Shown here: positions 28,889 to 46,019 of the stretch, piece after piece | How positions within the stretch are numbered: position 1 is the first letter of the stretch | How the letters are laid out: every line of letters begins with the position of its first letter | Source: Synechococcus sp. CBW1004 | GTDB lineage: Bacteria; Cyanobacteriota; Cyanobacteriia; PCC-6307; Cyanobiaceae | Direction: 5' to 3' | Assembly (NCBI RefSeq): GCF_015840715.1 | Contig: NZ_CP060397.1 | Span: 310,001-374,000, forward strand | Length of the DNA stretch: 64,000 nt | Translations under genes and position numbers: made by a program | The notes under the pieces: generated by a model | The model's input: the letters and a program-made list of their open reading frames with translations, nothing else | The model's database searches: none | What the model was told of the DNA's origin: nothing

Positions 28889-30325
28889 TCAGCTTCGCTC
28901 ACGCAGAGCCGAGTCAAGGGTGCGGGTGAAGGGCTGGAACAGATAGCGCAGAACGCTGCGCCTTGGCCCTTGAATCTCGGCTACAAGTGGCATGCCTACT
29001 TGAATCGGATATTTTTGATTCTTGGGATCCACATACTGCCGATCAAGCTCGATGCGAGCCTTGTAATAATACTGACGGTCATCCGGATCCTGGACTGTGG
29101 AAGGCGCAATGCTGACCACCTTGCCCGGTACAGATCCATAGATGCTTGCGTCGTAGGGCTGTAGCTTCACCTCTACAGGTTGACCCACGTTCACAAAGCC
29201 AATATCGGAGGAACGCACGCGTGCTTCCACCTGGTTGAGGCTCTGGCTTGGCACCAACTTGAGGACCACTGCGCCAGGGGCTACCACGGCTCCAGGAGTG
29301 CGGAAACGCAAATCACTCACTGTGCCGGCCAATGGCGCCACGATCTTGGTTCGATCGAGCTGGTTGCGCAATTTCTTGATGTTCTGATTCAAGACTGCCT
29401 CTTCATTCACCAGTTCCGCTACCTGGGAGCTTTCCTCCATGTTCAAGCCACTTTTGAGACTGCGGAGATTCGCCTCGGCCTGCTGGAGCAGCTGAGTCGC
29501 TTCGGCGCGAGTGCCGCGCAACTCGGCAAGTTTGGTGTTGGCGGAGGCAACCTGCTGGTCGGCGTTCAACAAATTCAGCCGTGATGCTGCGCCGGTTTTC
29601 ACCAGATCGGCATACATCCCGCGCTGCGTCTGGTACAGAGTCAGTTCGCGCTGGAATTTTGTGATCTGGTCGTTCAAGCCACGGATTTCTGCTTGCTTCT
29701 CGCGGATCTGGGCTTCGGCCAATGCGATCTTGTCGCTTTTATTGGCCATGCGATTCCGTAGCAACTGTCGCTGGGCTTCACTCACTTTGCCGTTGTCGAA
29801 CGCGGCCGTTTTGTCTCCGCGGATTGCCGCCTGCAACTGCTTCTGCTGCTGCAGCATGTTCTTGAGTTGTTGCTCGACGGCCCGGTATTCACTCTCCACC
29901 AGAGTGGGCCGCAATTCCAGCATGATCTCCCCGGCGCTGACCGGGTCGCCATCCTGCACATTCACCTTCGCAACGATGCCACCTTCAAGGTGCTGCACCA
30001 CGGTCACGTCGCCTTGCGGGATCACTTCCCCGGAAGCTCGCACCACCTGGGTGATCGGGGTGAGCGCCGCCCAGGGGAAGAAGATCAGAGCCGCTGCGCC
30101 CAGCCCATAGAGGGTGAGCCGCAAGTAGCGGTTGTCGGGCTTTTCCTCCAACTCCAGCGCCTGGCTGAGACGTTTTCTGCCCAGCAGAGCGATGGCGTCG
30201 GGATCGTCGATTCCCGGCAGGCGTGCCAACAGTCCTGAGGCAGGTTTCACCGCCAGTGGACCACCTTGATCGTCGACAGCAACTTGGGGGGGGAGGCTCT
30301 GTGGGGGAAGAGGGCTGGTGGTCAT
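28889..30325 (-). CDS. HlyD-family type I secretion membrane fusion protein
   Basis: The periplasmic adaptor that links the ABC exporter to an outer-membrane channel (478 residues). A short cytoplasmic part is followed by one membrane segment (LTLYGLGAAALIFFPWAAL), a lipoyl half-motif (ASGEVIPQGDVTVVQHLEGGIVAKVNVQDGD), a long coiled coil (about residues 130-330), the second lipoyl half (DRTKIVAPLAGTVSDL) and a beta-barrel ending in VGMPLVAEIQG. The frame is open to a TTG at 30370 with an ATG at 30367; I chose the ATG at 30325, which gives a typical leader (MTTSPLPPQS). No TolC-type channel is encoded in the window, so it must be elsewhere. Confidence 0.92.
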   Translation of the reverse strand: MTTSPLPPQSLPPQVAVDDQGGPLAVKPASGLLARLPGIDDPDAIALLGRKRLSQALELEEKPDNRYLRLTLYGLGAAALIFFPWAALTPITQVVRASGEVIPQGDVTVVQHLEGGIVAKVNVQDGDPVSAGEIMLELRPTLVESEYRAVEQQLKNMLQQQKQLQAAIRGDKTAAFDNGKVSEAQRQLLRNRMANKSDKIALAEAQIREKQAEIRGLNDQITKFQRELTLYQTQRGMYADLVKTGAASRLNLLNADQQVASANTKLAELRGTRAEATQLLQQAEANLRSLKSGLNMEESSQVAELVNEEAVLNQNIKKLRNQLDRTKIVAPLAGTVSDLRFRTPGAVVAPGAVVLKLVPSQSLNQVEARVRSSDIGFVNVGQPVEVKLQPYDASIYGSVPGKVVSIAPSTVQDPDDRQYYYKARIELDRQYVDPKNQKYPIQVGMPLVAEIQGPRRSVLRYLFQPFTRTLDSALRERS

Positions 30326-30384
30326 GGCGGCGAACCAGGTGAGGGAATGGAAAGTCAGCTCCGGCATCAAGGCCGGGCATCACA

Positions 30385-32583
30385 TCAACAATCGGCGGTG
30401 GCAGAGCGCTGCATGCGTCTGCGCAGCTCATCCGGTGTGCCTTGAAAGACAGTCACGCCTTTGTCAAGGATGCAGAGCAGATCGGCCTGCTCCAGCAGCA
30501 GCTTGTTGTCTGTGGCCAGGATCACCGAGCGCTCCTGGCCGGAGAAGAGACAGCGACGCAAGCTCGGCAGCAACGCCAGAACGGATTCAAACTCATCAGG
30601 GGAGAGGCCCAGGCTGATGTCATCCAGAAGCAGGATCGGTGCGTCCTTGATCACAGCCTGAGCCAAGGCAAGGAGTTTCAGCACACCACTGGGCAACTGA
30701 TAGGTGACCGCATCATTGAGCTCGGTGTCAAACCCCTGGGGCAATGATTCGATGATCGGCAGAAGCTGCAACTGATCACAGAGCTCCCGTACTTCTGCCG
30801 CACAGGCTTCCGGATTCATGGTCGTGAGATAGCTCCAAATCGTGCCGGGCAGCAGTTCCACCTTGTCCATCAGAAATGCAATGTTCCTCTGGATGGTGTC
30901 TGTGGTGAATTGACGGTAATCTTTTCCGTCGAGCAAGAGCGAACCACTCACCATTGGAAGCAGCTGGTCGATGACCCGCAGCACGGTGCTCTTGCCACAC
31001 CCCGGATTGCCAGTGACGGCCAGGATCTGACCGGGGGATACCGTCAGCGAGGCACGGGTGATGGCGAGACTGTTGTCGTTGCTCACCCGACAGGCAGCCG
31101 AGTCAAGCAGCACGGCACCGCGAAGACGAATCACCTCTCTGTGCTGCACGGTGGTGGTGATGCGTGGTGAGTTGCGAAGATTCAGGAACTGATCAAGTTG
31201 GCTGTACTGTGCCCGCATGGTCGAGAAGCGCAGCAGGGCATTCATCAGTTGCTGGAACGGACCGAACACCCGCCACACAAAGAACATCGAGGCAATCAGA
31301 TTTCCCATTGCCATGGAACCCTGTCCGCTGCCATAGGCCATCCAGGCACCGATTGCCAGGGTGAGCACGGCCGCCAGCTGCGAGCTCGTGGAGGTGATCA
31401 CCTGCAGCTGGCCCACCTGCTGGTTGAGGGTGAGACTGCTAGTGGCACTCTGAGCGGATAATCCCCGCAGTCGCTGCAGCCACACCCACTCGACATTGGT
31501 GAGTTTAACGTCAAGGAAACGATGTACCAATTCCTGCTGGGCCTGCGCCAGCCCTATGCCCGTGTTCAGATTCATCTCGGCAGCCCCGGCATAGAACCTC
31601 GATAACGTCCACACCATCAGGCCTGACACCAGCATCAGCACCAGTGGCACCAGCACCAGCCAGCCGCTGATCAGGGCGATGGCCAGCAGGTAGATGACCA
31701 CATAGGGGAAGTCGAGACAGGCCAGGGCCATGGGACCCTGCAGATAGCTGAGCAGGCTGTCGAGATTGCGCTGGCGGCTCTGCAGACCAAAGCGCCCCAT
31801 GGCCTCGATCTGACGGAGGTCGAGACTGAAGGTCTTCTCCACCAACGCCACGCCCAGCAGGGCGTCGATGCGACCACCAAGCTGGGCCAGCACCGTCGAG
31901 CGCCATTGGCGCAGGATCCAGGTGAGGTCGAAGAGAACCAGGACGCCCAGGAAGATCCACGAGGTGGAGGCAATGCTGTCGCTGGGGATCGCAAGGTTGT
32001 AGATGGCGCGAATGTAGAAGGGCAGTGTCAATGCCAGCAGTGCCAGCCCAAAGCTGATGACGTAGAGCAGGCCGATCCGGTTGGTGAAGCGGTAGAACAC
32101 CTCCTGGAGCATGCCGATCCGCGTTTTGCCACTCCGTTCCTGAATCAGGATCAGTACACCGCCCGGCTCCAGTTGGAGGACATCACTGCGGCCGTTCACG
32201 TTGCCGGCAACCACAGCACTGCCTTTATCGCGTGAGAGAACCCAGGGGACGTTGTCCGGGGCCAGATAGAGGGCCGGCAGCAATTGGGGGTTGAGCTGTC
32301 CCCAGTGGTTCAGGACCTGTTTTGTGCTGTGGAAGCCCAGCCGCAGCAGGAGGTTGCGAGCATCCACCAGGTCCATCCGGCGGGGATCGGCGTCGAACAG
32401 CTCAAACAGCTGCTCAGAGCGGCCGGTCCATTGCAACTGCTGCAGTAACAACCGCACGCAGAAGGCCATCGGCGCTGCTGGGCTGAGAGTGAGGTCGCGC
32501 AGCAGCTGTCCGGAGTCAGGTTTTCCGCTCAGAATGGTGCCGCTCTGGGGAGCGCCGTTACCTAGCTGGATTGACTTTCTCAT
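30385..32583 (-). CDS. Type I secretion ABC transporter subunit with C39-like N-domain
   Basis: A 732-residue exporter half. About 150 N-terminal residues resemble the inactive C39-peptidase-like domain of type I exporters (MDLVDARNLLLRLGF, VPWVLSRDKGSAVV); a catalytic Cys is not seen at the start. Six membrane helices follow (about 175-440), then a nucleotide-binding domain. Walker A is intact (GNPGCGKST). Other motifs are off consensus: the signature reads LPSGV instead of LSGGQ, Walker B ends LLLDD with Asp in place of the catalytic Glu, and the H-loop His is missing (SVILATDN). It overlaps the other ABC gene by four bases (ATGA), indicating coupled translation and a heterodimer. Confidence 0.9.
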   Translation of the reverse strand: MRKSIQLGNGAPQSGTILSGKPDSGQLLRDLTLSPAAPMAFCVRLLLQQLQWTGRSEQLFELFDADPRRMDLVDARNLLLRLGFHSTKQVLNHWGQLNPQLLPALYLAPDNVPWVLSRDKGSAVVAGNVNGRSDVLQLEPGGVLILIQERSGKTRIGMLQEVFYRFTNRIGLLYVISFGLALLALTLPFYIRAIYNLAIPSDSIASTSWIFLGVLVLFDLTWILRQWRSTVLAQLGGRIDALLGVALVEKTFSLDLRQIEAMGRFGLQSRQRNLDSLLSYLQGPMALACLDFPYVVIYLLAIALISGWLVLVPLVLMLVSGLMVWTLSRFYAGAAEMNLNTGIGLAQAQQELVHRFLDVKLTNVEWVWLQRLRGLSAQSATSSLTLNQQVGQLQVITSTSSQLAAVLTLAIGAWMAYGSGQGSMAMGNLIASMFFVWRVFGPFQQLMNALLRFSTMRAQYSQLDQFLNLRNSPRITTTVQHREVIRLRGAVLLDSAACRVSNDNSLAITRASLTVSPGQILAVTGNPGCGKSTVLRVIDQLLPMVSGSLLLDGKDYRQFTTDTIQRNIAFLMDKVELLPGTIWSYLTTMNPEACAAEVRELCDQLQLLPIIESLPQGFDTELNDAVTYQLPSGVLKLLALAQAVIKDAPILLLDDISLGLSPDEFESVLALLPSLRRCLFSGQERSVILATDNKLLLEQADLLCILDKGVTVFQGTPDELRRRMQRSATADC

Positions 32584-34328
32584 TGCCCCACCTCCGCCAT
32601 CAGCGGCAGCGATTGCTGACCATCACTGATCGCCTCGAGGACCCTGCCGCTGCCGTTGATCCAGACGCTGATGCGACCGCGCGTTCGCTTGAGGATGCGC
32701 TGCAGTGCGTCGATGAAATCCTTGCCGTAGGAGCAATTGCTGAGGTCGAGCAACAGCACCTGGGGGTCTGTGGCGAGGGCCCTTACCAGCTGGGCCAGCT
32801 TGATGCCATCGCTCGAGAGACCGCTGCTGGGGCCTTGACCCATCAGGGTGTCGTAGCCACTGGGCAGAGCACGCACTTTGGCGTCGAAGCCGCTGAGATA
32901 GCTCCAGAAGAGGGCCCGACGCTGGTGACGGCGCGGCTGAAAACTCGTCAGGTTCTGCAGCAGCGTCCCTTCAAATGGCTCCTGGGAGGGATCCACGTAG
33001 CTAATCATCTGCCGCAGCCCCTCCCGGTTGTAGGCATCGATCGGCTTGCCGTTGATCAGCAGACCAGGCAGGGGGTGAATCTGAAGCAGTCCCAGAAACA
33101 ACTGCCGCACATCAGCGCCGTAGCGACCATCGCGGAGCAGCATCACGTTGCCCGTCGGAAGTGCGAGGCCCGCCAGGCTCACCTGAAGGGCGCTGTCGGG
33201 GGCAACCTGGAGCCGCAGCCGTCCACCGCCTGGCTCGACCGGCTGGGCCATCAATGCCTCGAATTCCTCGCGGGCGTGGCTGAGTCGGCGGTAGCTGTTC
33301 CAGAGCCCCATGGCCTGCTGCCAGGGGGAGAGCACCTTGCCGGAGAGCAGCAGGCAGGCGGCCAGGGCTCCCACATTCATCCGATCGCCGATCACCAGAA
33401 ACGCTCCCCAGGTGACCATCGTGGCCATGGCCACCTGGCTGGTGAGGGCACCAAAGGCCTGGTACTGGCCGCTGAACAGGGCGTTCTGCATGCGCTGCCA
33501 GGCCAATTCCTCCTGGCGGCGCTCATGCCCCAGGAGATATCGGCTCCCGAGGCCATTGGCCTTGATCAGATCAAGAGCGCCCACCAGCTGGTTCTGGTAG
33601 GTGAGGCGCGACAGCTCCAGCTGGTCGCGCTGCTTGGCGATCTGCTCATAGTTGCGTGAGAACGCCAGGGCGCGCAGCACATACACGACGATCGCCACAA
33701 CAGCGACAATGCCGATGCTGCCGCCGATCAGAAACAGGGCCACCACAAACAGCAGAGAGAAGACCAGATCAATCGCCGTCGTCAGCGCCTGCACGGTGGT
33801 TTCATCGCGCAACATGCTGATGCTGCTCAGCCGTTCGGCATGCGCTGCAGGTGACAGCTGCAGGTAGGTCGTCAGGGGCATTCGGCAGAAGTGGTCGAGC
33901 GCCTCCAGCCGGTTGCGATGTTCGAGGCGTGCGCCATCCTGGCCGGTGAGTGCGAGGCGCAGGGTGTGCAGCCAGCCACCGAGAAGCATCAGCAGCACGA
34001 CGCCCACACTCAGCACCAGCAGGCTCTCCATGGAGCCACTGGGCAGTACGGAGGTGTAGACGATATTGATATAGAGCGGTGATGACAGTTCAAGCAGGTT
34101 GATCAGCAGCGAACTCACCACCAGAGGCCCGATCTGGTAGGCGCTCCAATCCACGTTGCCAAGGGAGTGGAAGAATCTGTTGGTGATGAATTCTTCGATC
34201 AGATTGAAGTTGTCGTTCAGCTCCTGCTTCAGCCAGCGCCCGGGCCTCGCCAGGGATGCGGCAACTGCACCGAGCCAGCTGGCGTTCTGGTTGCCTGCTT
34301 GGCGATTTTGTAACGGTGATGCACCCAT
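32580..34328 (-). CDS. Type I secretion ABC transporter subunit with decayed ATPase domain
   Basis: A 582-residue exporter half and the first gene of the secretion operon. Five to six membrane helices (about 65-330) are followed by a domain that keeps the size and order of a nucleotide-binding domain but lacks its key residues. In place of Walker A is LLRDGRYGADVRQL with no GK[ST]; the signature is LSSDG; Walker B is VLLLDLSN with no catalytic Glu; and the H-loop region is VWINGSG. It cannot bind ATP in the usual way through its own P-loop. With the next gene it forms an asymmetric pair in which at most one composite site (Walker A of the partner plus this LSSDG) could work. Confidence 0.88.
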   Translation of the reverse strand: MGASPLQNRQAGNQNASWLGAVAASLARPGRWLKQELNDNFNLIEEFITNRFFHSLGNVDWSAYQIGPLVVSSLLINLLELSSPLYINIVYTSVLPSGSMESLLVLSVGVVLLMLLGGWLHTLRLALTGQDGARLEHRNRLEALDHFCRMPLTTYLQLSPAAHAERLSSISMLRDETTVQALTTAIDLVFSLLFVVALFLIGGSIGIVAVVAIVVYVLRALAFSRNYEQIAKQRDQLELSRLTYQNQLVGALDLIKANGLGSRYLLGHERRQEELAWQRMQNALFSGQYQAFGALTSQVAMATMVTWGAFLVIGDRMNVGALAACLLLSGKVLSPWQQAMGLWNSYRRLSHAREEFEALMAQPVEPGGGRLRLQVAPDSALQVSLAGLALPTGNVMLLRDGRYGADVRQLFLGLLQIHPLPGLLINGKPIDAYNREGLRQMISYVDPSQEPFEGTLLQNLTSFQPRRHQRRALFWSYLSGFDAKVRALPSGYDTLMGQGPSSGLSSDGIKLAQLVRALATDPQVLLLDLSNCSYGKDFIDALQRILKRTRGRISVWINGSGRVLEAISDGQQSLPLMAEVGQ

Positions 34329-35280: not shown

Positions 35281-35551
35281 AGGGATCTGAGGGAACGGAG
35301 AGGGTGTCCGTGTGCAACGGACCGGATCGACTGCTATAGGACGACTTGGGACGATGGGTGCCCCCGTCTGTACCGTCTTTTATACCGTCATTCACGGTCT
35401 GTGATGGATGGACGGAATTCGAGGGCCGTGGGACCTGCTTGAGACCCGGATCAGAGGGTTCAGGGGAGATGGCTGAGCCGGCGCTGGTTGGGGCTGAGAG
35501 CTGATCCGCAGCCAGACTGACGAGCACCATCGCTGGATTGACCCATGCGGC

Positions 35552-35977
35552 GTGATCACGCGACAGGAAGGGGCTGAGGAGAACCCTTTCATGGGCGACC
35601 GATTGATCATCTCTGACAACCGTGAGGACCCGGGCAACCCGCTGGTGCTTGACGGTGAGGCCATTGACGCAGCGGCACGGGACCCACTGGCGATCGGGAA
35701 GCTGATGGTGGATCAGGTCTGGGCAGAGGGAACCGACCCCACCGGTGGAGGCCTGTACTACGAGCGCAACAGCAACCAGCACCGCCGGCTGCAGGTCTTT
35801 GAAACAGGCAGCGAGGACTTCATGACCGGCGGCTGGGTGCGGGTGCTGGCTACCGCCGAACAGGTCCGCAAGGAGCGTCCTGGCATGGAGCTTGCTGCCA
35901 AGGCGGGACTGGTCACGATCCATGGCACCCACCGAGGCGTGCTGCTGGTGGAGTTCCTGGACGTTCCCTGGGGCTGA
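35552..35977 (+). CDS. Hypothetical protein
   Basis: A 141-residue protein that I do not recognise. Composition is that of a normal soluble protein (LIISDNREDPGNPLVLDGEAIDAAARDP through LLVEFLDVPWG), without signal peptide or membrane segments. The first start is GTG at 35552; an ATG at 35591 (MGDRLIISDN) is equally likely. It stands alone between two non-coding stretches. Confidence 0.6.
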   Translation: MITRQEGAEENPFMGDRLIISDNREDPGNPLVLDGEAIDAAARDPLAIGKLMVDQVWAEGTDPTGGGLYYERNSNQHRRLQVFETGSEDFMTGGWVRVLATAEQVRKERPGMELAAKAGLVTIHGTHRGVLLVEFLDVPWG

Positions 35978-36346
35978 GCAACCGCCACTGGGCTCCGGTC
36001 GGATTCGTTGAGCGCACCTCCCGGTGCGACAGCGGCCGTCCTTCAGCGTGCCACGGCTGCGCCGTGGCGTGCATCGGCCAGCCGCCGCCGCCCTCCGCTC
36101 CGGGGCCGGTGTGGGGGTGGGCAGGCATGGCTACTCTCCCGCGGCTGCGGTGCCCGGGAAGTTGCCCCGTGCACGGGGCTGGGGTGATGCCTCTGATTTC
36201 CTCGCGCGGCTGCGCGGCCAGCTGGGCATTCAGGGCTGAATCTGGTGGCCTTGCTTATCAGCTCGCCGATCCATCAGCGGCTAGCTCTGCTTTGCGTAGA
36301 TCCATTGCCCCGCAGCCACTCTGCCCGCTGCTCAGTGCGTTTGTAC
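35978..36346. other. Non-coding stretch before the recombination module
   Basis: Roughly 370 bases with no frame that looks like a protein. The left half is GC-rich with many CGGC/GCCG runs; the right half is less so and leads into a promoter candidate at 36347. No RNA gene was recognised. Confidence 0.5.
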
Positions 36347-36355
36347 TGGTAGAAT
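36347..36355 (+). promoter_or_regulatory. Extended -10 promoter candidate
   Basis: TGG followed by TAGAAT forms an extended -10 element (TGn-TAGAAT). No good -35 box is seen 17 bases upstream, as is common for extended -10 promoters. Transcription would start about 80 bases before the ATG of the SLOG-type gene and could serve the three-gene module that follows. Confidence 0.45.
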
Positions 36356-36439
36356 AAGAGCTGCGCCAAAGGCCACGAGCCCATCGCCTGCGGCAACGAA
36401 ATCCTCGGACAACTTGTCCCGTTCGTTTGCTCTGTAGCC

Positions 36440-36961
36440 ATGAGCTTGTCCTCTGCTGCAGTGGCCCAGGCCGCTGCATTGCCTTCCCTTGGCCTCCTGT
36501 CGCCGCCGGCGTTGGCCCATCGCTCGGTCGTCATCGTTGCCGCTGGTGGCCGTGATCTCGTCTGGCCCCAGGAGCGCATCGCCTCTGCTCTCCTCCAGCG
36601 CTCTGGCGGCCGGCCTGTCCATCTGTTGCTGCATGGCGGTGCCCGTGGTGCTGATCGCGCCATCGGCCGTGCCGCCCAGCAGCTCGGCTGGCGGGTCCAG
36701 GCCCTCGCCGCTGATTGGCGCCGTCATGGCCGCGCTGCCGGGCCCATCCGCAATCGCCTTCTGCTGGAGCAGGCCCTGGTCGAGGCCCAGGCCCACACCT
36801 CCCCTGCCTTCAGCGCCTCGGTGCTGGTGATCGCCTTCCCCGGTGGGCCGGGCACGGCTTCGCTCGTCCAGCAGGCCCGCCGCTGCTCCTCCCGCTCGCC
36901 GGTGCCGGTGGTGGTGATGGAAGTGCCGCCGCCCTTCTCGCCGGAGCCGCTCGCCGCCTGA
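36440..36961 (+). CDS. SLOG/YspA-like (DUF2493-type) nucleotide-binding protein
   Basis: A 173-residue Rossmann-like protein. After VVIVAAGGRD comes HLLLHGGARGADRAIGRAAQQLGW, the GG-x-GAD motif of the DUF2493/SLOG group, then GPIRNRLLLEQ and VIAFPGGPGT, which complete the ligand pocket. SLOG proteins sense or bind nucleotides and are common in phage and defence loci. It is the first gene of a run with the Gp157 and Rad52 homologs, all plus strand, with 51- and 86-base gaps. The role in the module is unknown. The first 27 residues are low complexity, so the start may lie later. Confidence 0.75.
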   Translation: MSLSSAAVAQAAALPSLGLLSPPALAHRSVVIVAAGGRDLVWPQERIASALLQRSGGRPVHLLLHGGARGADRAIGRAAQQLGWRVQALAADWRRHGRAAGPIRNRLLLEQALVEAQAHTSPAFSASVLVIAFPGGPGTASLVQQARRCSSRSPVPVVVMEVPPPFSPEPLAA

Positions 36962-37012
36962 GCGGCAGTCGCCGCGCCGTTCTTCCCGTTCCCTCCTCAC
37001 ATCCCCATCCCC

Positions 37013-37633
37013 ATGGCCGTTCTCACCGCCCCCGCCGTACCTCTCGCCCCAGCTCTCCCGCAGACCGCCGGGCCTTCCTGCTCCCTGCAGCGGTCCGGCT
37101 CGCTCTGGCAGCTGGGCATCGAGGCCCAGGAGCTCACCACCGCCATCGGTCAGCTCGCCGAGCAGCTGGAAGCCGATGACGACGACAGCCGCGCCCAGGC
37201 CCTCGCCGAGCTGGAGGCTGCCCTGCTGGCGGAAGAAGGCAACAAGCAGGCCCTCGCCGCCAAAGCCGATGCCACCTGCTGGGTGATCGAGCACCTGCGC
37301 GGCCAGGCCGCCTACCGCCAGCAGCAGGCCAAGCGGCTCACCGAGCTTTCCCGGTCTGATGCCTCTCGGGCGGATGCCCTCGAGGACTCGCTGGTTCTGG
37401 TGCTCACCAGGCTGCAGCCCACGGCCACCCGCTTCTCGTTTCCCAACCACGAGCTCAGCAGCCGCAAGTCACAGGCGGTCGAGATCGAGAACGAGGCCCT
37501 GCTCGATCCCGAGTGGCTCAGCGTCAAAACCACCTTCTCGGCCGACAAGACCGCCATCAAGGCGGCTCTCAAGGCAGGCCAGCAGATCACCGGCGCCCAG
37601 CTGATCTCCCGCCGCTCCTGGCGCATCCACTGA
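37013..37633 (+). CDS. Siphovirus Gp157-like protein
   Basis: A 206-residue protein. Residues from about 35 on form a helical, coiled-coil region (ATCWVIEHLRGQAAYRQQQAKRLTEL), and the end carries a conserved pattern (ALLDPEWLSVKTTFSADKTAIKAALKAGQQI then GAQLISRRSWRI, as a domain from about residue 160). This matches the Gp157 family of siphoviruses, usually encoded next to single-strand annealing recombinases. It is followed by a Rad52-type gene, which agrees with that pairing. A short pyrimidine-rich leader with TCCTCACA precedes the ATG in place of a Shine-Dalgarno sequence. Confidence 0.82.
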   Translation: MAVLTAPAVPLAPALPQTAGPSCSLQRSGSLWQLGIEAQELTTAIGQLAEQLEADDDDSRAQALAELEAALLAEEGNKQALAAKADATCWVIEHLRGQAAYRQQQAKRLTELSRSDASRADALEDSLVLVLTRLQPTATRFSFPNHELSSRKSQAVEIENEALLDPEWLSVKTTFSADKTAIKAALKAGQQITGAQLISRRSWRIH

Positions 37634-37719
37634 GGAGCCACAGGCCTCATGCAACTGGGGTTCCGGCCAGGCAGCCGGGGCTCCTTCTCCTTCCTCCTCA
37701 CACCATTGCTTCCATCGCC

Positions 37720-38727
37720 ATGACCGTCGCCGCTCCTTCCACCAACGGGGCCAGCCGGCCCGCTGCTCCACGTCCCGTCCAGAGGCCCCCCTCAGCCCTG
37801 GAGCTGATCCGCTCCGCTGATCGACGCGAGGCGCTCCCTCCATCCGTGCCGGAATCCGCGTCGGCCGCCGTCTCGGTCCAGCCCCCTGGCTTCTCCCCCG
37901 AGCAGCTCGCCGCTCTTTCCGCCCCCCTCGATCGGGCCAACGTCCGCCAGCGGGAGCAAGGCCGCAGCCGCGTGAGCTATCTGGAGGGGTGGCAGGTGAT
38001 CGCGGAAGCCAACCGCATCTTTGGCTTCGATGGCTGGCAGCGCCAGACCGTGGCCGTCCGCTGCGTCGCCCAGGCCGAACGCTTGATCGGTGCCAGAGGC
38101 ACGAGCCGAGACCAGAAGCCCGGTTGGGGCGTCACCTACACCGCCCGCGTCCGCGTCACCGTCACCGCCGGTGGCCTGACACCCCTGATCCGTGAGGGCA
38201 GCGGTGCCGGCCACGGCATCGACGTGGACCTGGGCCAGGCCCATGAATCCGCCCTCAAGGAAGCCGAGACCGATGCCATGAAGCGGGCCCTGATGACCTT
38301 CGGGAACCCGTTTGGCCTTGCCCTCTATGACAAGCGCCAGCGGGAGGTCAGCAGTGCAGCGGGCCAGGGTGATGGGGCCCAGCGGCCTGGTGGGCAGCGG
38401 TCTTGTCTGAGCCGGCCGGAGGCTGGTTCTCCCGCCGCCGCCGCTGCCTCCGCTGCTCAGCGCCGCACCCAAGCCACGGACCCGACGCCACCGCCATCAG
38501 CCCACGCCGACTGCGGCCAGATCCCCCTCGATGCCGAGACGATCCAGCACCTCCACAGCACGCTGCGGGCTCTCCCCCGCCCCCAGCTGGAGAGCCTCAC
38601 CCGGGCCTTCCGCAAGCGGTTCCAGGTGCCCGAGGAGGCGGTGACGATCGCCGATCGGATCAACCAGAAGTGCCACCACGACTGGATTGAGACGTTCCTG
38701 GTGCAACACCAGCTTCAGTCCGGCTGA
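37720..38727 (+). CDS. Rad52/Rad22-type single-strand DNA annealing protein
   Basis: A 335-residue recombination protein. The Rad52 core lies at about residues 65-210: LDRANVRQREQGRSRVSYL, EANRIFGFDGW, the strand YTARVRVTV, REGSGAGHG, and AHESALKEAETDAMKRALMTFG followed by NPFGLALYDK. These are the hallmarks of the annealing ring. The C-terminal third is Ala/Pro-rich and then has a helical tail. The ATG at 37720 is chosen because the longer frame has no homology upstream. Together with Gp157 it suggests a phage-derived recombination module. Confidence 0.88.
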   Translation: MTVAAPSTNGASRPAAPRPVQRPPSALELIRSADRREALPPSVPESASAAVSVQPPGFSPEQLAALSAPLDRANVRQREQGRSRVSYLEGWQVIAEANRIFGFDGWQRQTVAVRCVAQAERLIGARGTSRDQKPGWGVTYTARVRVTVTAGGLTPLIREGSGAGHGIDVDLGQAHESALKEAETDAMKRALMTFGNPFGLALYDKRQREVSSAAGQGDGAQRPGGQRSCLSRPEAGSPAAAAASAAQRRTQATDPTPPPSAHADCGQIPLDAETIQHLHSTLRALPRPQLESLTRAFRKRFQVPEEAVTIADRINQKCHHDWIETFLVQHQLQSG

Positions 38728-38785
38728 GCTGCCCAGCCCCTCTCCTGAAGGGGGCAAGTTGGCGGCTTCTGCCTACGCTTGGCCC

Positions 38786-39013
38786 ATGGCGTTTCCCCGC
38801 ATCAGCCACGATCCCGCCGTGATGGGTGGCAAGCCCTGCATCCGCGGGCTGCGCATCACGGTGGGCACGGTCGTGGGGTTGATCGCCAGCGGCAGCAGCC
38901 GCGAGCGGATCCTGCAGGCCTACCCGCAGCTGGAAGCGGCAGACATCGATGAGGCTTTGGCGTACGCCGCCTGGCGCATGGAAGAGCGAGAAGAGGCGCT
39001 GGTCCTGAGCTGA
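38786..39013 (+). CDS. DUF433 antitoxin-like protein
   Basis: A 75-residue protein with the DUF433 pattern: RISHDPAVMGGKPCIRGLRITVG, then an HTH-like segment (SRERILQAYPQLEAADIDEALAYAAW). DUF433 proteins are the DNA-binding antitoxins of pairs with DUF5615/PIN-like toxins. The stop codon overlaps the start of the next gene (TGATG). The longer frame to 38687 runs into the Rad52 gene and is not used. Confidence 0.88.
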   Translation: MAFPRISHDPAVMGGKPCIRGLRITVGTVVGLIASGSSRERILQAYPQLEAADIDEALAYAAWRMEEREEALVLS

Positions 39014-39390
39014 TGGCCAGGCTCCTGGTCGACATGAACCTCTCGACCGAATGGATCCCCCTGTTGCGGGCCGCAGGTCATGAAGCCGTGCACTGGTCGG
39101 AGGTGGGCGATCCAAGGGCACCGGATACGGTCCTGATGCAGTGGGCGATCGCCAACAGCTACGCCGTCTTCACGCACGACCTGGACTTCGGCACGATGCT
39201 GGCCCTCAGCGGTGCCGATGGGCCGAGCGTGCTTCAGGTGCGCTGCTTGAATGTCCTGCCCGAGGCGATCGGCACGCTGGTGCTGTCACTGCTCAAGACC
39301 TATGGCGCCGAGATCGAGCAAGGGGCGCTGGTGGTCGCCGATGAACGCCGGCGGCGGGTGCGCATCCTGCCCCTGAAGCGGACGAGCTGA
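39013..39390 (+). CDS. DUF5615 PIN-like toxin
   Basis: A 125-residue protein of the Mut7-C/DUF5615 PIN-like fold. It starts MARLLVDMNLSTEWIPLLRAAG, where the early Asp is a predicted metal ligand, and continues HWSEVGDPRAPDT and AVFTHDLDFGTML, which adds more acidic residues. The family is found as the toxic nuclease partner of DUF433. Its one-base overlap with the antitoxin gene is typical of such pairs. Activity on RNA is inferred from the fold. Confidence 0.85.
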   Translation: MARLLVDMNLSTEWIPLLRAAGHEAVHWSEVGDPRAPDTVLMQWAIANSYAVFTHDLDFGTMLALSGADGPSVLQVRCLNVLPEAIGTLVLSLLKTYGAEIEQGALVVADERRRRVRILPLKRTS

Positions 39391-39445
39391 GCAAGCCAGA
39401 CCAAGACAACCGCGCTAGTACAGGTGTACGCATCTTGAGTGGTTC

Positions 39446-39730
39446 ATGGGCGTCTCCTTGTCCCGGCCGGCAGCCCTGGCAGCCAGGCTTGAAGCCCCGA
39501 TCGAGGAGTGGCCCTACCTCGACAGCGAGGTGCTGCTCAAAACCCGCAGCCGCAAGGTCTGCATGACCTGCCACTGGTTTCGCCACCACGCGGGAGTGAA
39601 CTGCATCCCGGTGCTCACTTGCCAGCTGCATCAGGGTCTGATCGCCCATGGTGAGCACCTCACCAGCCGCTGTCAGGGCTGGACCGACGACATGACCCGG
39701 AGCCAGGGCTGGGCGCCGGAGGTGGCCTGA
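39446..39730 (+). CDS. Small Cys/His protein, unknown function
   Basis: A 94-residue protein with four Cys and several His in one block (VCMTCHWFRHHAG, NCIPVLTCQLHQ, LTSRCQGW), which suggests a zinc-binding fold. I recall similar small proteins from picocyanobacteria but cannot name a family. A GTACA-GG-TGTAC palindrome (39418-39429) lies just upstream of the start and could be part of its promoter. The DUF1651 gene follows seven bases later. Confidence 0.65.
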   Translation: MGVSLSRPAALAARLEAPIEEWPYLDSEVLLKTRSRKVCMTCHWFRHHAGVNCIPVLTCQLHQGLIAHGEHLTSRCQGWTDDMTRSQGWAPEVA

Positions 39731-39737
39731 GCGGCCC

Positions 39738-40022
39738 ATGCACGTCGGTGACCGGAAGCGACCGCCGCTCTCGCCCCAGGAAGGCTGGCTGAGCGACGGT
39801 CGCCAGGTGCTGCACTTCAGGCCAATGCGTTACGACCGCTGGAGTCAGAGCCTGGAGGTGACCTTCGGGGAGGTGATGACCGGCGGTGAGCCGCCGCTGC
39901 TCAAAAAGCGCAGGGAGCTGACGCGAGAGCAGGCGATCAAGCTCTGGGCCCAGAAGCGCCAGCAGGGCTGGCAGCCTTGCGCGCCCCAGTGGCTGCCACC
40001 GCCTTCCCCGGCTGAACGCTGA
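39738..40022 (+). CDS. DUF1651 family protein
   Basis: A 94-residue protein with the layout of DUF1651, a family I know mainly from Synechococcus and Prochlorococcus: GWLSDGRQVLHFRP near the start, PPLLKKRRELTREQAIKLW in the middle and the closing GWQPCAPQW. Its function is unknown. It is probably cotranscribed with the preceding Cys/His protein gene. Confidence 0.75.
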   Translation: MHVGDRKRPPLSPQEGWLSDGRQVLHFRPMRYDRWSQSLEVTFGEVMTGGEPPLLKKRRELTREQAIKLWAQKRQQGWQPCAPQWLPPPSPAER

Positions 40023-40028
40023 GCCGGT

Positions 40029-40587
40029 TCAGAAGCGGGAGCCCGGCGTCTGCAGGAAGGCCAGCTCCTCCGCGCTCGACACCCGCCCCAGAGCAGCATT
40101 GCGGTGGGGGAAGCGGCCAAAGCGGGCGATCACATCCCGGTGCTGGCGGGCGAAGTCGGCGGTGCGGGGATCGCTGAACCGCTCGAACAGCGGCAGGTGC
40201 CGCCTCCTGCTCTGCCAGGTCTTCCGAATGCATCAGCGGCATCAGCCAGAACTGCCGCCTTGCCTGCTCGTCTTCGGCCTCCAGCCGGCCGCGCTCCACA
40301 GCCATCAGGCTCAGCGCCAGGGCCTGGAGATCGCCCGCGAAGGCCATGGCGGTGTCGCGCCAGAACTGGCGCGGGAACTGATCCAGCAGCAGCACCAGCG
40401 CCAGGCCTCGGGACGGCTCTTCATTCCAGGCATCGAGCTCACCGGCGATCGCCCGCCGTGTCAGGCCCAGGAATCGTTCCCGCAGGAGGGCATCAAAGGC
40501 CGGGTCCTTGGCGAACCACTGGCGCAGCCGGCTTTGCACGAACCAGAAGTCCAGCACCTCGCTGACCTGGTGTCGCTGACCAGCCAT
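40029..40587 (-). pseudogene. DUF924 family protein, frameshifted
   Basis: The first part (MAGQRHQVSEVLDFWFVQSR, LLLLDQFPRQFWRDTAMAF, LMPLMHSEDLAEQEAA) is a clear DUF924 protein. After about 40200 the same frame loses homology, while another minus frame continues the family with LFERFSDPRTADFARQHRDV, then IARFGRFPHRNAALGR, and stops at 40029-40031. One extra base near 40196-40205 in the GGCACCTGCCGC stretch explains it. It is either a true pseudogene or a sequencing error. A longer upstream frame to 40770 is not part of the family. Confidence 0.85.
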
Positions 40588-40603
40588 CAGAGCAGGCCCA
40601 AAT

Positions 40604-40770
40604 GGGGAAAACACTGGCCAGCTCGATGCCCTTGCAGTCTTCCTGATCTTCATGTCGCTGACCCTGCTGCTGCGCTTCCCCTGGGGCGTGTTGCCCCTGA
40701 TCGGTGTCTCCGCACTCGTGGGATTGGAGCGCGGTTTGCTGCAGCTTGTGGTGGGAAATGCTCCAGGCAT
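40604..40770 (+). pseudogene. Membrane-protein fragment, possibly end of a ChrA-like transporter
   Basis: The plus frame reads LDALAVFLIFMSLTLLLRFP, then WGVLPLIGVSALVGLERGLL: two hydrophobic helices typical of a transporter C-terminus and loosely like chromate transporter ChrA. The homology has no start, and what follows (VVGNAPGIQSLGHRG) is unrelated. It lies between the DUF924 gene and mntH at the left border of the metal island. The assignment is weak. Nothing else is seen up to 40895. Confidence 0.3.
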
Positions 40771-40895
40771 CCAGTCGCTTGGTCACCGTGGTGCCTCTGG
40801 CATCAGCTCAACGACTCAGTGGCCTTGGATGCTCAGATCGTGTCCCAGTGTTTTTTGCTCGTCATGGGACTAAAGAGGCTGCCGTTGTCAACGGT

Positions 40896-42275
40896 TCAGA
40901 CGCCCCGCAGCACCGCGCTCAGCATCGAGAGGTTGATCAGCACAATCACGCTGGCGCAGATCCAGCCCGCGGCCTGCAGCCAGAGCGGTGCTTTCAGATC
41001 GCCCATCAGGCCCTGGCGGCCGCAGAACCACACCAGCGGGATCACCGCGAAGGGCAACTGCAGCGAAAGCACCACCTGGCTCAGCACCAGCAGATTCGTG
41101 GTGGCTCGCTCGCCGAACAGGATCACCGTGGCCATCGCCGGGATCAGGGCGAGGCCGCGGGTGAGCAGCCGCCGCTTCCAGTCCGGCAGCCGGATCTGCA
41201 GGAACCCCTCCATCACGATCTGGCCGGCCATGGTGGCGGTGAGCGTCGAGCTCTGTCCCGCCGCCAGCAGGGCCACCCCGAACAGCACGCTGGCGAGAGA
41301 GGTGCCCAGCATCGGCGTCAGCAGCCGGTAGGCCTCGCTCAGGTCCGTCACCGGCTGCGGTAGCCGTCCGTAGAAGCTGCCGGCGGCGAGCACCAGGATC
41401 GAGACATTGATCAGAAAGGCAAGGCTGAGGGCGATCAGGGTGTCCCAGGTGCTGAAAGCCAGGGCCCTGCGCCTCGTCCCCTGGCCCTCCGCCCAGAGGC
41501 GGGTCTGCACCAGCGAGGAATGGAGGTAGAGGTTGTGGGGCATCACCGTGGCACCGAGAATGCCGGCCGCCAGAAACAGCTGCTGCCCGTCCCTAAGGCT
41601 GGCGGCCTGGGGAAGGAAGCCCTGGCCCACCTGGCCCCAGTTGGGCTGCAGCAAGAACATTTCCACCGCGAAGCAACCCCCGACCAGGGCGACCAGGGCG
41701 ATCACCAGGGCCTCCAGCCGCCGGATCCCGAAGCGCTGCAGTGCCAGCAGCAACAGGGTGTCGGCGGCCGTGAGGCCCACCCCCCAGGGCAATGGAAGAC
41801 CGAAGAGCAGCTGCAGGGCAATGGCGCTGCCTACCAGCTCGGCCAGGTCGCAGGCAATGATCGCCACTTCGGCCAGCAGCCAGAGGGGGATCCGCCAGAA
41901 CCGCGGCAGCAGACGGCTGCAGGCCTGGGCCAAGTCCAGCCTTGTGGCGATACCCAACCGGCAGCAGAGCGACTGGAGCACCATCGCCATCAGGCTGGAG
42001 AGCCCGATCACCCAGAGCAGGCGGTACCCGAACTGGGAGCCGGCCGCCAGATCCGTGGCCCAATTGCCCGGATCCATGTAGCCCACGGCCACCAGATAGC
42101 CGGGGCCCAGCACCCGCATGAAGGTGCGCAGCATGCCCAGGCCGGCAGGCACCTCCACCGTCTGGGCATTGGTGCGCGCGGCCATGTCCAGCGGTGCATC
42201 AGGCATGAAGCGACGCCAGCGGAGTTGGAGGGTAAGGCGAGGGTGGCTGCGATCCTGCTGGGGCATCGCCGGCAT
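40896..42275 (-). CDS. mntH: Nramp-family divalent metal transporter
   Basis: A 459-residue proton-coupled importer of Mn(II)/Fe(II) in the inner membrane. The TM1 metal motif DPGN is present (GYMDPGNWATDL), and TM6 has MPHNLYLHS; both contribute the metal ligands. About eleven membrane helices can be traced. The first ATG is used; one at residue 24 is also possible. It lies 32 bases after the VKOR gene on the same strand, so the two are likely one operon behind the CadR-type operator at 43260-43290. An importer of Mn under a Cd/Pb/Zn-type regulator is unusual. Confidence 0.93.
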   Translation of the reverse strand: MPAMPQQDRSHPRLTLQLRWRRFMPDAPLDMAARTNAQTVEVPAGLGMLRTFMRVLGPGYLVAVGYMDPGNWATDLAAGSQFGYRLLWVIGLSSLMAMVLQSLCCRLGIATRLDLAQACSRLLPRFWRIPLWLLAEVAIIACDLAELVGSAIALQLLFGLPLPWGVGLTAADTLLLLALQRFGIRRLEALVIALVALVGGCFAVEMFLLQPNWGQVGQGFLPQAASLRDGQQLFLAAGILGATVMPHNLYLHSSLVQTRLWAEGQGTRRRALAFSTWDTLIALSLAFLINVSILVLAAGSFYGRLPQPVTDLSEAYRLLTPMLGTSLASVLFGVALLAAGQSSTLTATMAGQIVMEGFLQIRLPDWKRRLLTRGLALIPAMATVILFGERATTNLLVLSQVVLSLQLPFAVIPLVWFCGRQGLMGDLKAPLWLQAAGWICASVIVLINLSMLSAVLRGV

Positions 42276-42307
42276 GAGCCCACCCTGGGGAAGGGATCAC
42301 CGCTAGC

Positions 42308-43231
42308 TCAGAAGTCGCGAGGACCTGTGTAGCCACTGAGATCAGCGAGAGTTTTCAGCGGCTTGACGCCCGAATCCACGACGCCCTTGATCTGCCAGCT
42401 GGGATAGCCCTGAACCCCCTGCTGCTTGCACAGCTGCGCCTGGCTGTTGGCGCCGTCTTCGGCGCATTCGATCACCTGGAGCTTGGCGGCGGCCTCCTTG
42501 CCGAAGGCCTCCTTCTGGTCATGGCAGTGGGGGCACCAGTACGCCGTGAACACCCGGGCGCCGACGCTGCTCAGATGCTCCGCCAGGGCAATCTTGGCCG
42601 GCGAACTGGCGCTGATGACAGCTGGAGCCGCCCGTCCGCTTTGGGCGACAGGCTGGTCCGCCGATGCTGCCCAGCCCAGCCCCAGCAGACCAACAAGAAG
42701 GACTGTCATCACTCCGCGAAAGATCAGTTGGCTGCGGTCGATCCAGCCACCTCCAACAAGACTCAACAGGAACAGCGCGAGGCTGAGGGCGGCTGAGACC
42801 ACACAGAAGGTGCAGAAGGCCTTGATCTCGAAGACCAGGAGCCCCATCAGCACCAAACTGAAGACGGCCATGCCGCAGCTGACGAGGAACAGAGCCCAGC
42901 GATTGCCCTCCGAGGCTGGGGCGCGCAGACCTCCTCGCAGCAACGGCATCAGGGCCAGCAGGAGCACCGTGGCGTAGGCCAGGAACCCAAAGAGAGAAAG
43001 TGGCTGGCCCAGCAGCGTGCCCCAGGCGCTGCCGAGCACCTTGTCGCAGCCATCGCTACCGCCCGGACAGGACAGGCTGCCGATCCAACCCCAGCGCTTG
43101 GCGGTGATCGAGCCGGTATCGATCATGCCGATCGTGGCGAGCACGGCCATGGTGAGGCGCACCCAGGGCCGGCCTGGCTCCTGGCCGACCCGACGGCTGG
43201 AGAGAGGCTTGGTTCGCGTAGCGCTGCTCAC
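42308..43231 (-). CDS. Vitamin K epoxide reductase-thioredoxin fusion
   Basis: An integral membrane disulfide-forming enzyme, the cyanobacterial VKOR homolog fused to its thioredoxin-like partner (307 residues). The VKOR part has the loop cysteines CPGGSDGC and the active-site CxxC (AFCTFCVVS) near the fourth helix; the C-terminal domain has CPHC (AYWCPHCHDQ) as the thioredoxin motif. It introduces disulfides in periplasmic or lumenal proteins. The frame reaches an ATG at 43261, but that codon would overlap the -10 region of the MerR-type promoter, so I prefer the GTG at 43231. It is followed by mntH. Confidence 0.9.
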   Translation of the reverse strand: MSSATRTKPLSSRRVGQEPGRPWVRLTMAVLATIGMIDTGSITAKRWGWIGSLSCPGGSDGCDKVLGSAWGTLLGQPLSLFGFLAYATVLLLALMPLLRGGLRAPASEGNRWALFLVSCGMAVFSLVLMGLLVFEIKAFCTFCVVSAALSLALFLLSLVGGGWIDRSQLIFRGVMTVLLVGLLGLGWAASADQPVAQSGRAAPAVISASSPAKIALAEHLSSVGARVFTAYWCPHCHDQKEAFGKEAAAKLQVIECAEDGANSQAQLCKQQGVQGYPSWQIKGVVDSGVKPLKTLADLSGYTGPRDF

Positions 43232-43259
43232 AGGGGGAGAGAACGGCTGAGATACGGCC

Positions 43260-43290
43260 ATTGAAAAGCCTGAAGTGGCTTCAGGGTCAA
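43260..43290 (-). promoter_or_regulatory. CadR-type promoter/operator for VKOR-mntH
   Basis: On the minus strand TTGACC (43290-43285) is followed by a 19-base spacer with the dyad CTGAAG..CTTCAGG and then TTCAAT. The long spacer with a centred dyad is the signature of MerR-family promoters. It matches the sequence before cadA almost base for base in the left half. The regulator gene lies divergent, 62 bases away. Confidence 0.75.
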
Positions 43291-43352
43291 GAGCCTAGCG
43301 TTGCGCCAGGGAGGCTTGTCCGCCCGACTTACCTACCCAAGGGGATGAATCC

Positions 43353-43769
43353 ATGCAGATTGGCGAGTTGGCACGGTCTACCGGAGTGACGATCGAAACC
43401 ATCCGCTATTACGAACGCGAGCACTTGTTGCCGGTGCCGCAGCGCACGGATGGCAACTATCGCCTCTATTCTCCGCAGCATGTGGAGCAGTTGCGCTTCA
43501 TCCGCTACTGCCGCAGCCTGGACATGAGCCTGGAGGAGGTCCGCATCCTGATCGGGGTGCTCGACACACCGTCCGGAAGCTGTCTGACGGTGAATGCCCT
43601 GCTGGACGAGAAGATCGCCGAGGTCGATGCCCGCGTGAATGAGTTGCACAAACTCCAGGATCAGCTACGGCAGCTCAGAGGGCTTTGTCAGCAACCGGAT
43701 GAGGTGAAGACCTGCGGCATCCTCATGGAATTGAACCGTTCGGCACGAATCGACAAGGCTCAGATCTGA
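43353..43769 (+). CDS. cadR: MerR-family regulator, CadR/PbrR-like
   Basis: A 138-residue metal sensor and transcription activator. The winged helix (MQIGELARSTGVTIETIRYYE, then GNYRLYSPQHVEQLRFI) is typical of MerR. The dimer helix is followed by Cys in PSGSCLTVN, and by GLCQQPDEVKTCGIL. Three cysteines at these places match the Cd/Pb-binding set of CadR-type regulators (about positions 77, 112, 119). The C-terminus lacks the His-rich tail of some CadR proteins. It is convergent with cadA (16 bases between stops) and divergent from VKOR, with operators for both nearby. Confidence 0.88.
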   Translation: MQIGELARSTGVTIETIRYYEREHLLPVPQRTDGNYRLYSPQHVEQLRFIRYCRSLDMSLEEVRILIGVLDTPSGSCLTVNALLDEKIAEVDARVNELHKLQDQLRQLRGLCQQPDEVKTCGILMELNRSARIDKAQI

Positions 43770-43785
43770 TCATTTCCGACCAGGC

Positions 43786-45999
43786 TCAGCCCCTGATATT
43801 GCCAAGCGTGGGAGTGCGGAGCAGCCGCAGGCCATTGGCGATCACGATCAAGCTGGTGCCCATGTCCGCGAAGACCGCCATCCACATCGTGGCGTTCCCG
43901 GCCACGGTTAGCACCAGAAACAGGGCCTTGATTCCCAGCGCCAGGCCAATGTTCTGGCGCAGGATGGAGAAGGTGCGGCGCGAGAGGGCGATCGTTTCCG
44001 GTACACGCATCAGATCGTCGTTCATGATCACCACATCGGCCGCTTCGATGGCGATTTGGGTGCCCGCGGCCCCCATCGCAAAACCGATGTCAGCCTGGGC
44101 CAGGGCCGGCGCATCGTTGATGCCATCGCCGACCATGGCCGTGAATCCGTAGCGGGCCTGCAGAGCGGCCACCGCATCGAGCTTGTCCTGGGGCAACAGG
44201 TTGCTTTTCACCTGCTCGATGCCGGCCAGGGCCGCAATCGCGCCGGCGGTGGCTGCGTTGTCACCCGTGAGCATCACCGGTTTGACGCCCAGGGCTCTCA
44301 GGGCCGCCATGGCGGCCGCGGAGCTGGGCCGAACGGTGTCGGCAACAGCGATCAAGGCGAGTACGCCGCTGTCATCCGCGAGCAGGCTGAGCGAGCGACC
44401 TTGGCGCTCGTGGACCTGCATCGATGCTTCCAGTGAGCTGGAGCAGAGCCCCAGCTCCTCGATCCAGCGGTGGTTGGCCAGCATCAGCGGCCGCCCCGCA
44501 ATCACGCCGCGCACCCCCCTTCCGGGGAGGGCCTCGAAGGCCTCCACGGCCAGCCGCTCGCCATCAAGGCCTGCGGCCATGGCCCGCGACACGGGATGGT
44601 CGGAGCGCTCCGCCAGGCTGCTAGCCCACTGTTTGAGAACGCCAGCGTCTGCCGTTTCTTGCTGAGGGGAAAAGGCCACCAGCTGGGGCTGGCCCAGGGT
44701 GATCGTGCCGGTCTTGTCGAGCGCCAGCACCTTGATCTTGCGGGCCTCCTCGATGTAGAGGCCGCCTTTGATGATGATGCCGCGACGGGCGGCGGTGGCC
44801 AGGCCGCTCACCACCGTGACCGGTGTGGCGATCACCAGCGCGCAGGGGCAGGCGATCACCAGCAGCACCAGTGCCTTGTAGATGGCCTGCAGGGGGGTGA
44901 ACCCCAGCAAGGGCGGCGCCAGCAGGGCAACAGCCAGTGCCACCACGAACACCGCCGGGGTGTAGCGGGCCGCGAAGCGATCGACGAAGCGCTGGATCGG
45001 AGCACGGGAGGCCTGGGCTTCCTCCACGGCCTGGATGATGCGCGCCAGGGTGCTCAGCGAGGCAGGTGCCGTCACCTGGATCTCCAGGGCGCCGCCCTGG
45101 TTGATCGTGCCCGCAAACACTTCATCACCAGGGCCTTTGTCGACCGGCAGGCTTTCGCCGGTGATCGGGGCCTGGTTGATCGCACTCTCGCCGGAAAGCA
45201 CCGTGCCATCAAGCGGCAGGCGCTCGCCCGGGCGGACACGCACCACATCTCCGATGGCCACAGCACTGGCGGAGACGCGTTGCCAGCGGCCATCGCTCTG
45301 GCGGATCTCCGCCTCGTCGGGAGCCAGGGCCATCAGGCTGGTGATCGCCTGGCGGGCCCGCTGCACCGCCCGCGCTTCGATCGCCTCGGCCACGGCATAG
45401 AGCGCCATCACCATGGCGGCTTCCGGGAAGCGGCCGATCAGGAAGGCGCCCGTGACCGCCACGCTCATCAGCGCATTGATGTTGAGCCGGCCCTGGCGCA
45501 GGGCCGCGAGGCCCTTGCGAAACACGGAGAAGCCCGCCAGGGCGATGGCGGCGATGGCGATCCCGATCTCAAGCAGCTCATGACCCGGGAAGGCGGGAAC
45601 GACCAGATGCAGCAGCTCCGCTGTGATCGCCAGCGCCAGGGAGCCCGCCAGGCGGAGCCGTTCAAGGCGCCGTTCGGCGCGGGTCTGGGCGGCGGACGGC
45701 CGCTGATCGGGGCTGATCGGCTCCGGGGTGAATCCCAGCCGGCGGATTGCGGCAAGGGCGGAGTTGAGCGCTGCTGCTTCGGCATCGATCGCCAGAACGC
45801 GCTCGGCCAGCAGGAACCGCAGGCTGCGGATGCCGTCAACACCTGAGAGGGCATGCCGGATCTCGCCTTCCTCCGTGGCGCAATCCATCGCGCTGATCCG
45901 AAACAGCGCTTCTCTGCCGCTTGCCGGCTCCGGCTGCGGCGCCGTGGTGGCTCCGGCCTTCTGCCCGCTGGTTCTACTGCTGCAGCAATGTTCCGCCAT
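43786..45999 (-). CDS. cadA: Zn/Cd/Pb-transporting P1B-type ATPase
   Basis: A 737-residue heavy-metal efflux ATPase in the inner membrane. The N-terminal metal-binding domain has DCATEE in place of the copper-type CxxC, a sign of the Zn/Cd group. Membrane helices carry the CPC motif (VIACPCALVIATPV). The phosphorylation motif DKTGT, the nucleotide-domain His in SDHPVSRA, and GDGINDAPAL follow. It begins MAEHCCSSRTSG; the paired Cys may also bind metal. A CadR-type operator ends 20 bases before the start. It should export Cd, Zn or Pb. Confidence 0.95.
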   Translation of the reverse strand: MAEHCCSSRTSGQKAGATTAPQPEPASGREALFRISAMDCATEEGEIRHALSGVDGIRSLRFLLAERVLAIDAEAAALNSALAAIRRLGFTPEPISPDQRPSAAQTRAERRLERLRLAGSLALAITAELLHLVVPAFPGHELLEIGIAIAAIALAGFSVFRKGLAALRQGRLNINALMSVAVTGAFLIGRFPEAAMVMALYAVAEAIEARAVQRARQAITSLMALAPDEAEIRQSDGRWQRVSASAVAIGDVVRVRPGERLPLDGTVLSGESAINQAPITGESLPVDKGPGDEVFAGTINQGGALEIQVTAPASLSTLARIIQAVEEAQASRAPIQRFVDRFAARYTPAVFVVALAVALLAPPLLGFTPLQAIYKALVLLVIACPCALVIATPVTVVSGLATAARRGIIIKGGLYIEEARKIKVLALDKTGTITLGQPQLVAFSPQQETADAGVLKQWASSLAERSDHPVSRAMAAGLDGERLAVEAFEALPGRGVRGVIAGRPLMLANHRWIEELGLCSSSLEASMQVHERQGRSLSLLADDSGVLALIAVADTVRPSSAAAMAALRALGVKPVMLTGDNAATAGAIAALAGIEQVKSNLLPQDKLDAVAALQARYGFTAMVGDGINDAPALAQADIGFAMGAAGTQIAIEAADVVIMNDDLMRVPETIALSRRTFSILRQNIGLALGIKALFLVLTVAGNATMWMAVFADMGTSLIVIANGLRLLRTPTLGNIRG

Positions 46000-46019
46000 G
46001 GTCCTGTCATCCAGACCCC

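Follow-up and report, generated by a model that had tools for sequence, protein, structure and literature searches.

The genes for a SLOG protein, a Gp157 homologue and a Rad52-type protein at 36440-38727 are likely to be the recombination module that adjoins the attachment (att) site in a family of mobile elements integrating at tRNA genes in freshwater cyanobacteria of the Cyanobiaceae, and the mechanism set out below forms part of that reading. Comparison between genomes reveals a fixed gene order, att repeats, an integrase, a multicopy state, transfer across genera and purifying selection; for the biochemical roles of the proteins, control by LexA and the function of SLOG we infer the assignments discussed in the last section. 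The window, meaning the whole 64,000-nucleotide stretch that was analysed, corresponds to G000:C1:310001-374000 of a 3.67 Mb genome on a single contig.

The trio and its integrative element

The three genes lie in one run on the forward strand, as the initial annotation had read them, and every protein exceeds the curated Pfam cut-off: SLOG (YspA/YAcAr; 36440-36961, 173 aa; PF10686, 9.1e-10), Gp157 (Sipho_Gp157; 37013-37633, 206 aa; PF05565, 2.6e-23, and phrog_253, 1.7e-23) and Rad52 (Rad52_Rad22; 37720-38727, 335 aa; PF04098, 7.5e-41). The Rad52 frame is open from 37513, with the conserved start at 37720, and its product comprises a core at about residues 58-214, a variable linker and a conserved C-terminal domain at about 268-330. 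The Pfam match to the core domain, and the match of the A1 profile of the module Rad52 to solved human and yeast RAD52 (7.9e-17), place it among the Rad52-type annealing proteins. Gp157 is annotated in PHROGs as Mu Gam-like end protection, and the earlier description of a recombination module in an island is upheld by these two assignments. The predicted structure of Gp157 is a long helical model (pLDDT 85), for which a fold search gave zero significant matches. The glycine-rich motifs HGGARGAD and FPGGxGT of SLOG are invariant across 29 copies and, with a predicted Rossmann-like fold, assign the protein to the SLOG superfamily; a fold search with its model returned nothing at E <= 0.001, the weak matches including the CARF sensors Cam1 and Csm6, and TRPM2. 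Among the papers searched, none mentions both Gp157 and Rad52.

Neither an integrase nor an attachment site had been visible to the first reading, but both belong to the element. The 13-bp sequence AACGGAGAGGGTG at 35294-35306, the reverse complement of a tRNA-Ser 3' end, is an att remnant that precedes SLOG by 1.15 kb; the integrase stands at the far end, about 62 kb to the right of the module and outside the window. BLAST for tRNA fragments near the window copy gave none, and the remnant was detected only via cross-genus comparison. In the compared 164 kb the sequence occurs only at C1:345294, C1:412549 (a tRNA-Ser fragment) and C1:448407 (the tRNA-Ser gene), the first two placing a directly repeated tRNA 3' end at each edge of the element; in G084, a closed genome of another genus, it occurs only at the two element edges. 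The whole element occupies C1:345294-412561 (about 67.3 kb), of which 35294-64000 lies in the window, and its left edge is sharp in two comparisons. Over this 28.7 kb the window differs from G084 by one mismatch, and at 35291-51237 it is 98.5-99.7% identical to G195, from a third genus. An intact tyrosine recombinase with Arm-DNA-bind_3, Phage_int_M and Phage_integrase domains (C1:411053-412327) adjoins the right att site, where its neighbours are Bro-N, AAA_25 and a terminase-like gene, and among the cargo are genes for a multicopper oxidase, a P-type ATPase and an RND pump, together with a DUF305 gene. Because the shared block ends exactly at AACGGAGAGGGTG beside the intact recombinase, the module lies, on the strength of this comparison, at one end of an integrative element of ~67 kb that carries metal-resistance cargo. 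The near-identical element has unrelated left flanks in the two genomes, and its presence in different genera indicates that it moved between them recently and almost unchanged. The window Rad52 is in addition 100% identical to loci in the MAGs Cyanobium sp. E1_MAG_00006 and Synechococcaceae bacterium RE-23may17-332.

Beyond the window, similarity to G084 continues at 99.65-99.7% up to C1:387211, with one indel, and 88-94% with gaps from there to 412590. This step within one element, from 99.7% to about 92%, suggests exchange by recombination between resident related elements. An independent ORF (250-290 aa), in many cases close to an HTH gene, has the same C-terminal domain as the module Rad52 and is present at about C1:408085-408903 in the same genome, and at loci L049, L056 and L279-L287. 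The first of these sits in the recombinase-end region of the window element, a hint that it shares a partner with the module Rad52, which both proteins may bind. In G084 (C1, about 2446939-2447400) an open frame adjoining the recombinase resembles, by eye only, an AlpA-type excisionase or regulator. The window segment 60945-61018 is 85% identical to a complete tRNA-Gln(CTG), although ARAGORN makes no call there, and may be the decayed remains of a tRNA that travels with the element. Just beyond the left edge of the element, at 28889-34328, an HlyD-like gene and two ABC-transporter-like genes look like a peptide export cluster.

A second element in the same genome (C1:864946-900459, 35.5 kb) has tRNA-Pro at its left and is bounded by perfect 42-bp repeats of the tRNA-Pro 3' half at 864946 and 900418. 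Its module is at the left end, its recombinase (899199-900278) at the right end, and its cargo consists of mixed metabolic and restriction genes with transposases. Module and recombinase thus occupy opposite ends in both resolved elements, and in a circular form would lie on either side of attP. In the empty-site comparison, the flanks of module-free relatives at tRNA-Pro were not syntenic.

Attachment sites, copies and transfer

A scan for tRNA T-arms (background 0.017 per kb in shuffled sequence) found a tRNA 3' end <=3.2 kb upstream of the module in 33 of 48 copies and downstream in one of 48; within 1.2 kb, T-arms were upstream in 31 of 55 copies and downstream in none of the 55. None was found upstream in 16 copies with enough DNA, where a short remnant like that of the window would be missed. 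Among the complete tRNAs at module sites are Pro(TGG) and Arg(TCT), Gly-, Ser- and Leu-like ends are found among the fragments, and the distance from module to att is usually 0.6-1.2 kb. Tyrosine recombinases lie 0.4-1.7 kb 5' of SLOG in about 15 loci of the genome collection, and the genome of the window has only about four loci of this recombinase type, three of them <=8 kb from a module copy. Recombinase, att and module follow in a row at several loci, such as L105, L110, L118 and L134, as in tandem stacks, and the recombinase stands between att and module at L052, L150, L121 and L162, so the layout varies.

The order and strand of SLOG, Gp157 and Rad52 are constant in virtually every cyanobacterial locus whose upstream sequence could be read far enough, and the same order is present in genome-collection loci of Cyanobium, Vulcanococcus and Synechococcus. 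Since it recurs in dozens of loci, this order is far beyond chance. The initial annotation had counted SLOG as part of the module and had named its absence or scattering in related islands as the finding that would speak against this; a search for gene order over related genomes found the trio fixed, and SLOG is therefore neither absent nor scattered but a constant member.

The genome of the window has SLOG in five places, Gp157 in four and Rad52 in three, plus fragments, and the window copy alone is intact in all three genes. The four further copies, missed in the first reading, are all damaged, with Gp157 frameshifted at 866 kb, a stop in Rad52 at 902 kb, a truncated pair at 3066 kb and a partial SLOG at 933 kb. 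Across the family, Rad52 is present in 63 of 200 genomes and 15 of 34 genera, with up to 11 matches per genome, and intact copies show purifying selection on all three genes (median dN/dS 0.17, 0.24 and 0.25). A tree built from 77 concatenated trios scatters the roughly ten copies of a single strain, Cyanobium Cruz-8D1, with a few of them forming near-identical pairs, a pattern that indicates horizontal spread with some recent duplication. In Vulcanococcus sp. Clear-D1, loci L109 and L110 are an identical duplicate of at least 10.7 kb, 56 kb apart on one contig, and both copies begin exactly at a tRNA 3' fragment.

Phage relatives and cargo

Phages often carry members of the Gp157 and Rad52 families, many module copies are decayed and a terminase-like gene is present in the window element, all of which would suit a trio that is the leftover early region of a prophage, that is, a stranded phage recombination cassette with no role in island mobility. 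The phage versions are, however, arranged differently. In IMG/VR phage contigs Rad52 is mostly the core domain only, without the C-terminal domain, a nearby Gp157 lies downstream of it and there is no SLOG. The nearest phage Rad52, from Microcystis phage Mvi-Yong1342-1, has a core 64% identical to that of the module, and the Gp157 of Synechococcus phage S-LBS1 is 49% identical and lies apart from the phage's own annealing protein; in both phages, unlike in the module, the genes are apart and the stretches read hold no SLOG homologue. Trio-bearing IMG/VR contigs, in which restriction and helicase genes are abundant, were considered as phages and rejected, one sharing 9.5 kb of identical sequence with a contig of Cyanobium Cruz-8D1 and none matching the phrog_2 terminase, which is a weak negative because two comparison phage records likewise gave none. 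Capsid, portal and tail genes are absent among the families listed for these contigs and for the tRNA-Pro element, and the window element has its single terminase-like gene with no further structural genes among the families listed. As intact copies also stand beside att sites under purifying selection, a prophage leftover is an unlikely source of the trio. A search of plasmids returned only a distant Streptomyces Rad52.

Behind Rad52, on the same strand, the window carries a DUF433 antitoxin-like gene (38786-39013; PF04255, 2.8e-24) and a DUF5615 PIN-like toxin gene (39013-39390; PF18480, 9e-23), followed by a Cys-rich 94-aa ORF and a DUF1651 gene (39446-40022; DUF1651, 9e-14). The toxin-antitoxin pair is thus where the initial annotation had placed it, but its membership of the module fails, the DUF433/DUF5615 family being just downstream in about 13 of 85 copies. 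Toxin-antitoxin and Fic genes are equally common upstream and downstream of the module in a Pfam census, and the pair is therefore island cargo. The commonest right neighbours are the Cys-rich ORF and DUF1651 (about 20 of 85 downstream regions), and other downstream content includes BrnTA-like pairs, Abi_2 and an Na/H exchanger, among others.

With flanks so rich in toxin-antitoxin, Abi and Fic genes, and with nucleotide sensors among the weak fold matches of SLOG, the trio could be imagined as an anti-phage defence system, with SLOG as the sensor of a nucleotide signal and Gp157 and Rad52 acting on phage DNA, particularly as some systems need no toxic effector. Nevertheless, none of the three proteins matched a PADLOC model, an effector domain is lacking and the module has a fixed place at att, instead of occurring anywhere in defence islands; a defence system is considered improbable. 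BrnT/BrnA-like pairs behind Rad52 at L057, L270, L273 (G020) and L272 (G028) are followed by an isolated ~85-bp copy of the 3' end of Rad52, accompanied by tandem GC hairpin repeats, and L056 resembles an insert-free version of this arrangement. This would be expected if the Rad52 3' end were an integron-like cassette-capture site, where each inserted toxin-antitoxin pair closes with a duplicate of that 3' end. All four cases have the same insert, though, and could be a single copied event, and most copies have no such repeats. The proposal of cassette arrays was further weakened by the equal frequency of toxin-antitoxin genes upstream in the census, and it is very improbable.

Leader, promoter and proposed mechanism

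The DNA homology common to the copies extends from about 420 bp 5' of SLOG to the Rad52 stop and begins with a conserved non-coding leader (36018-36439, forward strand; alignment of 70 copies) that contains GC-rich inverted repeats. This leader travels with the module: 28 of the 42 genus genomes have it, in most cases next to SLOG. It was considered as a structured RNA and rejected, with no Rfam match, a z-score of -1.0 and covariation absent. The extended -10 promoter candidate proposed earlier in front of the run, TGGTAGAAT (36347-36355, forward), gains from being nearly invariant in the 70 aligned copies, and it is overlapped by a predicted LexA-like box, AGTGCGTTTGTACT (36334-36347, forward), which appears across the 70 copies as AGTGCNTTTGTACT-GGTAGAAT over the extended -10. 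The published cyanobacterial LexA consensus is AGTACWNWTGTACT (PMC3091678). The box has one mismatch to RGTACNNNDGTWCB in most copies and is perfect at locus L125. The sole perfect match in the window, AGTACAGGTGTACG (39417-39430, forward; 0.13 expected by chance), precedes the Cys-rich gene at 39446. LexA control of the module promoter is predicted and considered probable.

DprA is a member of the SLOG fold group, and a host repair or transformation system, with a DprA-like SLOG and an annealing protein present in islands by chance, would account for both this kinship and the LexA-like box, but such a system is scarcely credible given 0 to about 13 matches per genome, absence from about half of the same-genus genomes and from 19 of 34 sampled genera, and movement of copies between genera. 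As an att-adjacent module, the trio is instead probably an SOS-controlled annealing and end-protection system of a multicopy, horizontally moving, tycheposon-like family. It would come into play during excision, entry or replication of the element, or in recombination with copies already present. The LexA-like promoter would be released by DNA damage or when the element enters a new cell, the Gam-like Gp157 would protect free DNA ends, and Rad52 would anneal complementary strands, leading to circularisation or repair of element DNA or to exchange of segments with resident copies. SLOG, which the initial annotation had put forward as a possible sensor controlling the module, may act as a DprA-like partner that is nucleotide-controlled or handles ssDNA, and the tyrosine recombinase would perform site-specific integration and excision. 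A tentative and rather doubtful extension is that SLOG-gated, SOS-induced annealing next to attP allows tRNA-integrating islands to form circles, to stack in tandem and to trade cargo with resident copies, with SLOG as a small-molecule or ssDNA licence. If true, SLOG-licensed single-strand annealing would be element maintenance of a kind not described before.

Tycheposons (Hackl et al. 2023, Cell, as described in PMC10872708 and PMC10187409) are tRNA-bounded cargo elements with a tyrosine recombinase, found in picocyanobacteria and in other planktonic organisms. The present family is like them in carrying cargo, being bounded by tRNA and having a tyrosine recombinase, a likeness of layout and apparent mode of working, and unlike them in occupying larger-genome members of the family and in its att-adjacent SLOG-Gp157-Rad52 module. 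Phage modules (lambda Red type, Rad52-type annealing proteins, Mu Gam) similarly pair an annealing protein with a Gam-like companion, whereas the trio adds SLOG, an extra Rad52 C-terminal domain and carriage by islands, and no exonuclease partner was found adjoining it. With other members of the SLOG superfamily, such as YspA, YpsA (PMC6459960) and DprA, the module SLOG shares the YAcAr Pfam match, a Rossmann-like model and invariant GGARGAD and PGGxGT, but it consists of one small domain and has a fixed place in an operon whose other products are recombination proteins.

The gain and trade of islands with metal-resistance, defence and metabolic genes in freshwater picocyanobacteria are poorly known. 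The module marks one end of the elements and points to the att site, from which exact element boundaries can be obtained, and it raises the question of why an integrase-driven element keeps Rad52-type annealing and SLOG under selection at its junction. A small ORF between att and leader (35552-35977, forward), with no match in Pfam, is common to several copies (tBLASTn 76-94% in L044, L045, L046, L050, L051, L053 and L062). An orphan piece of the leader, 82% identical over 118 bp and without a SLOG gene, is present elsewhere in the same genome at C1:1803048-1803165.
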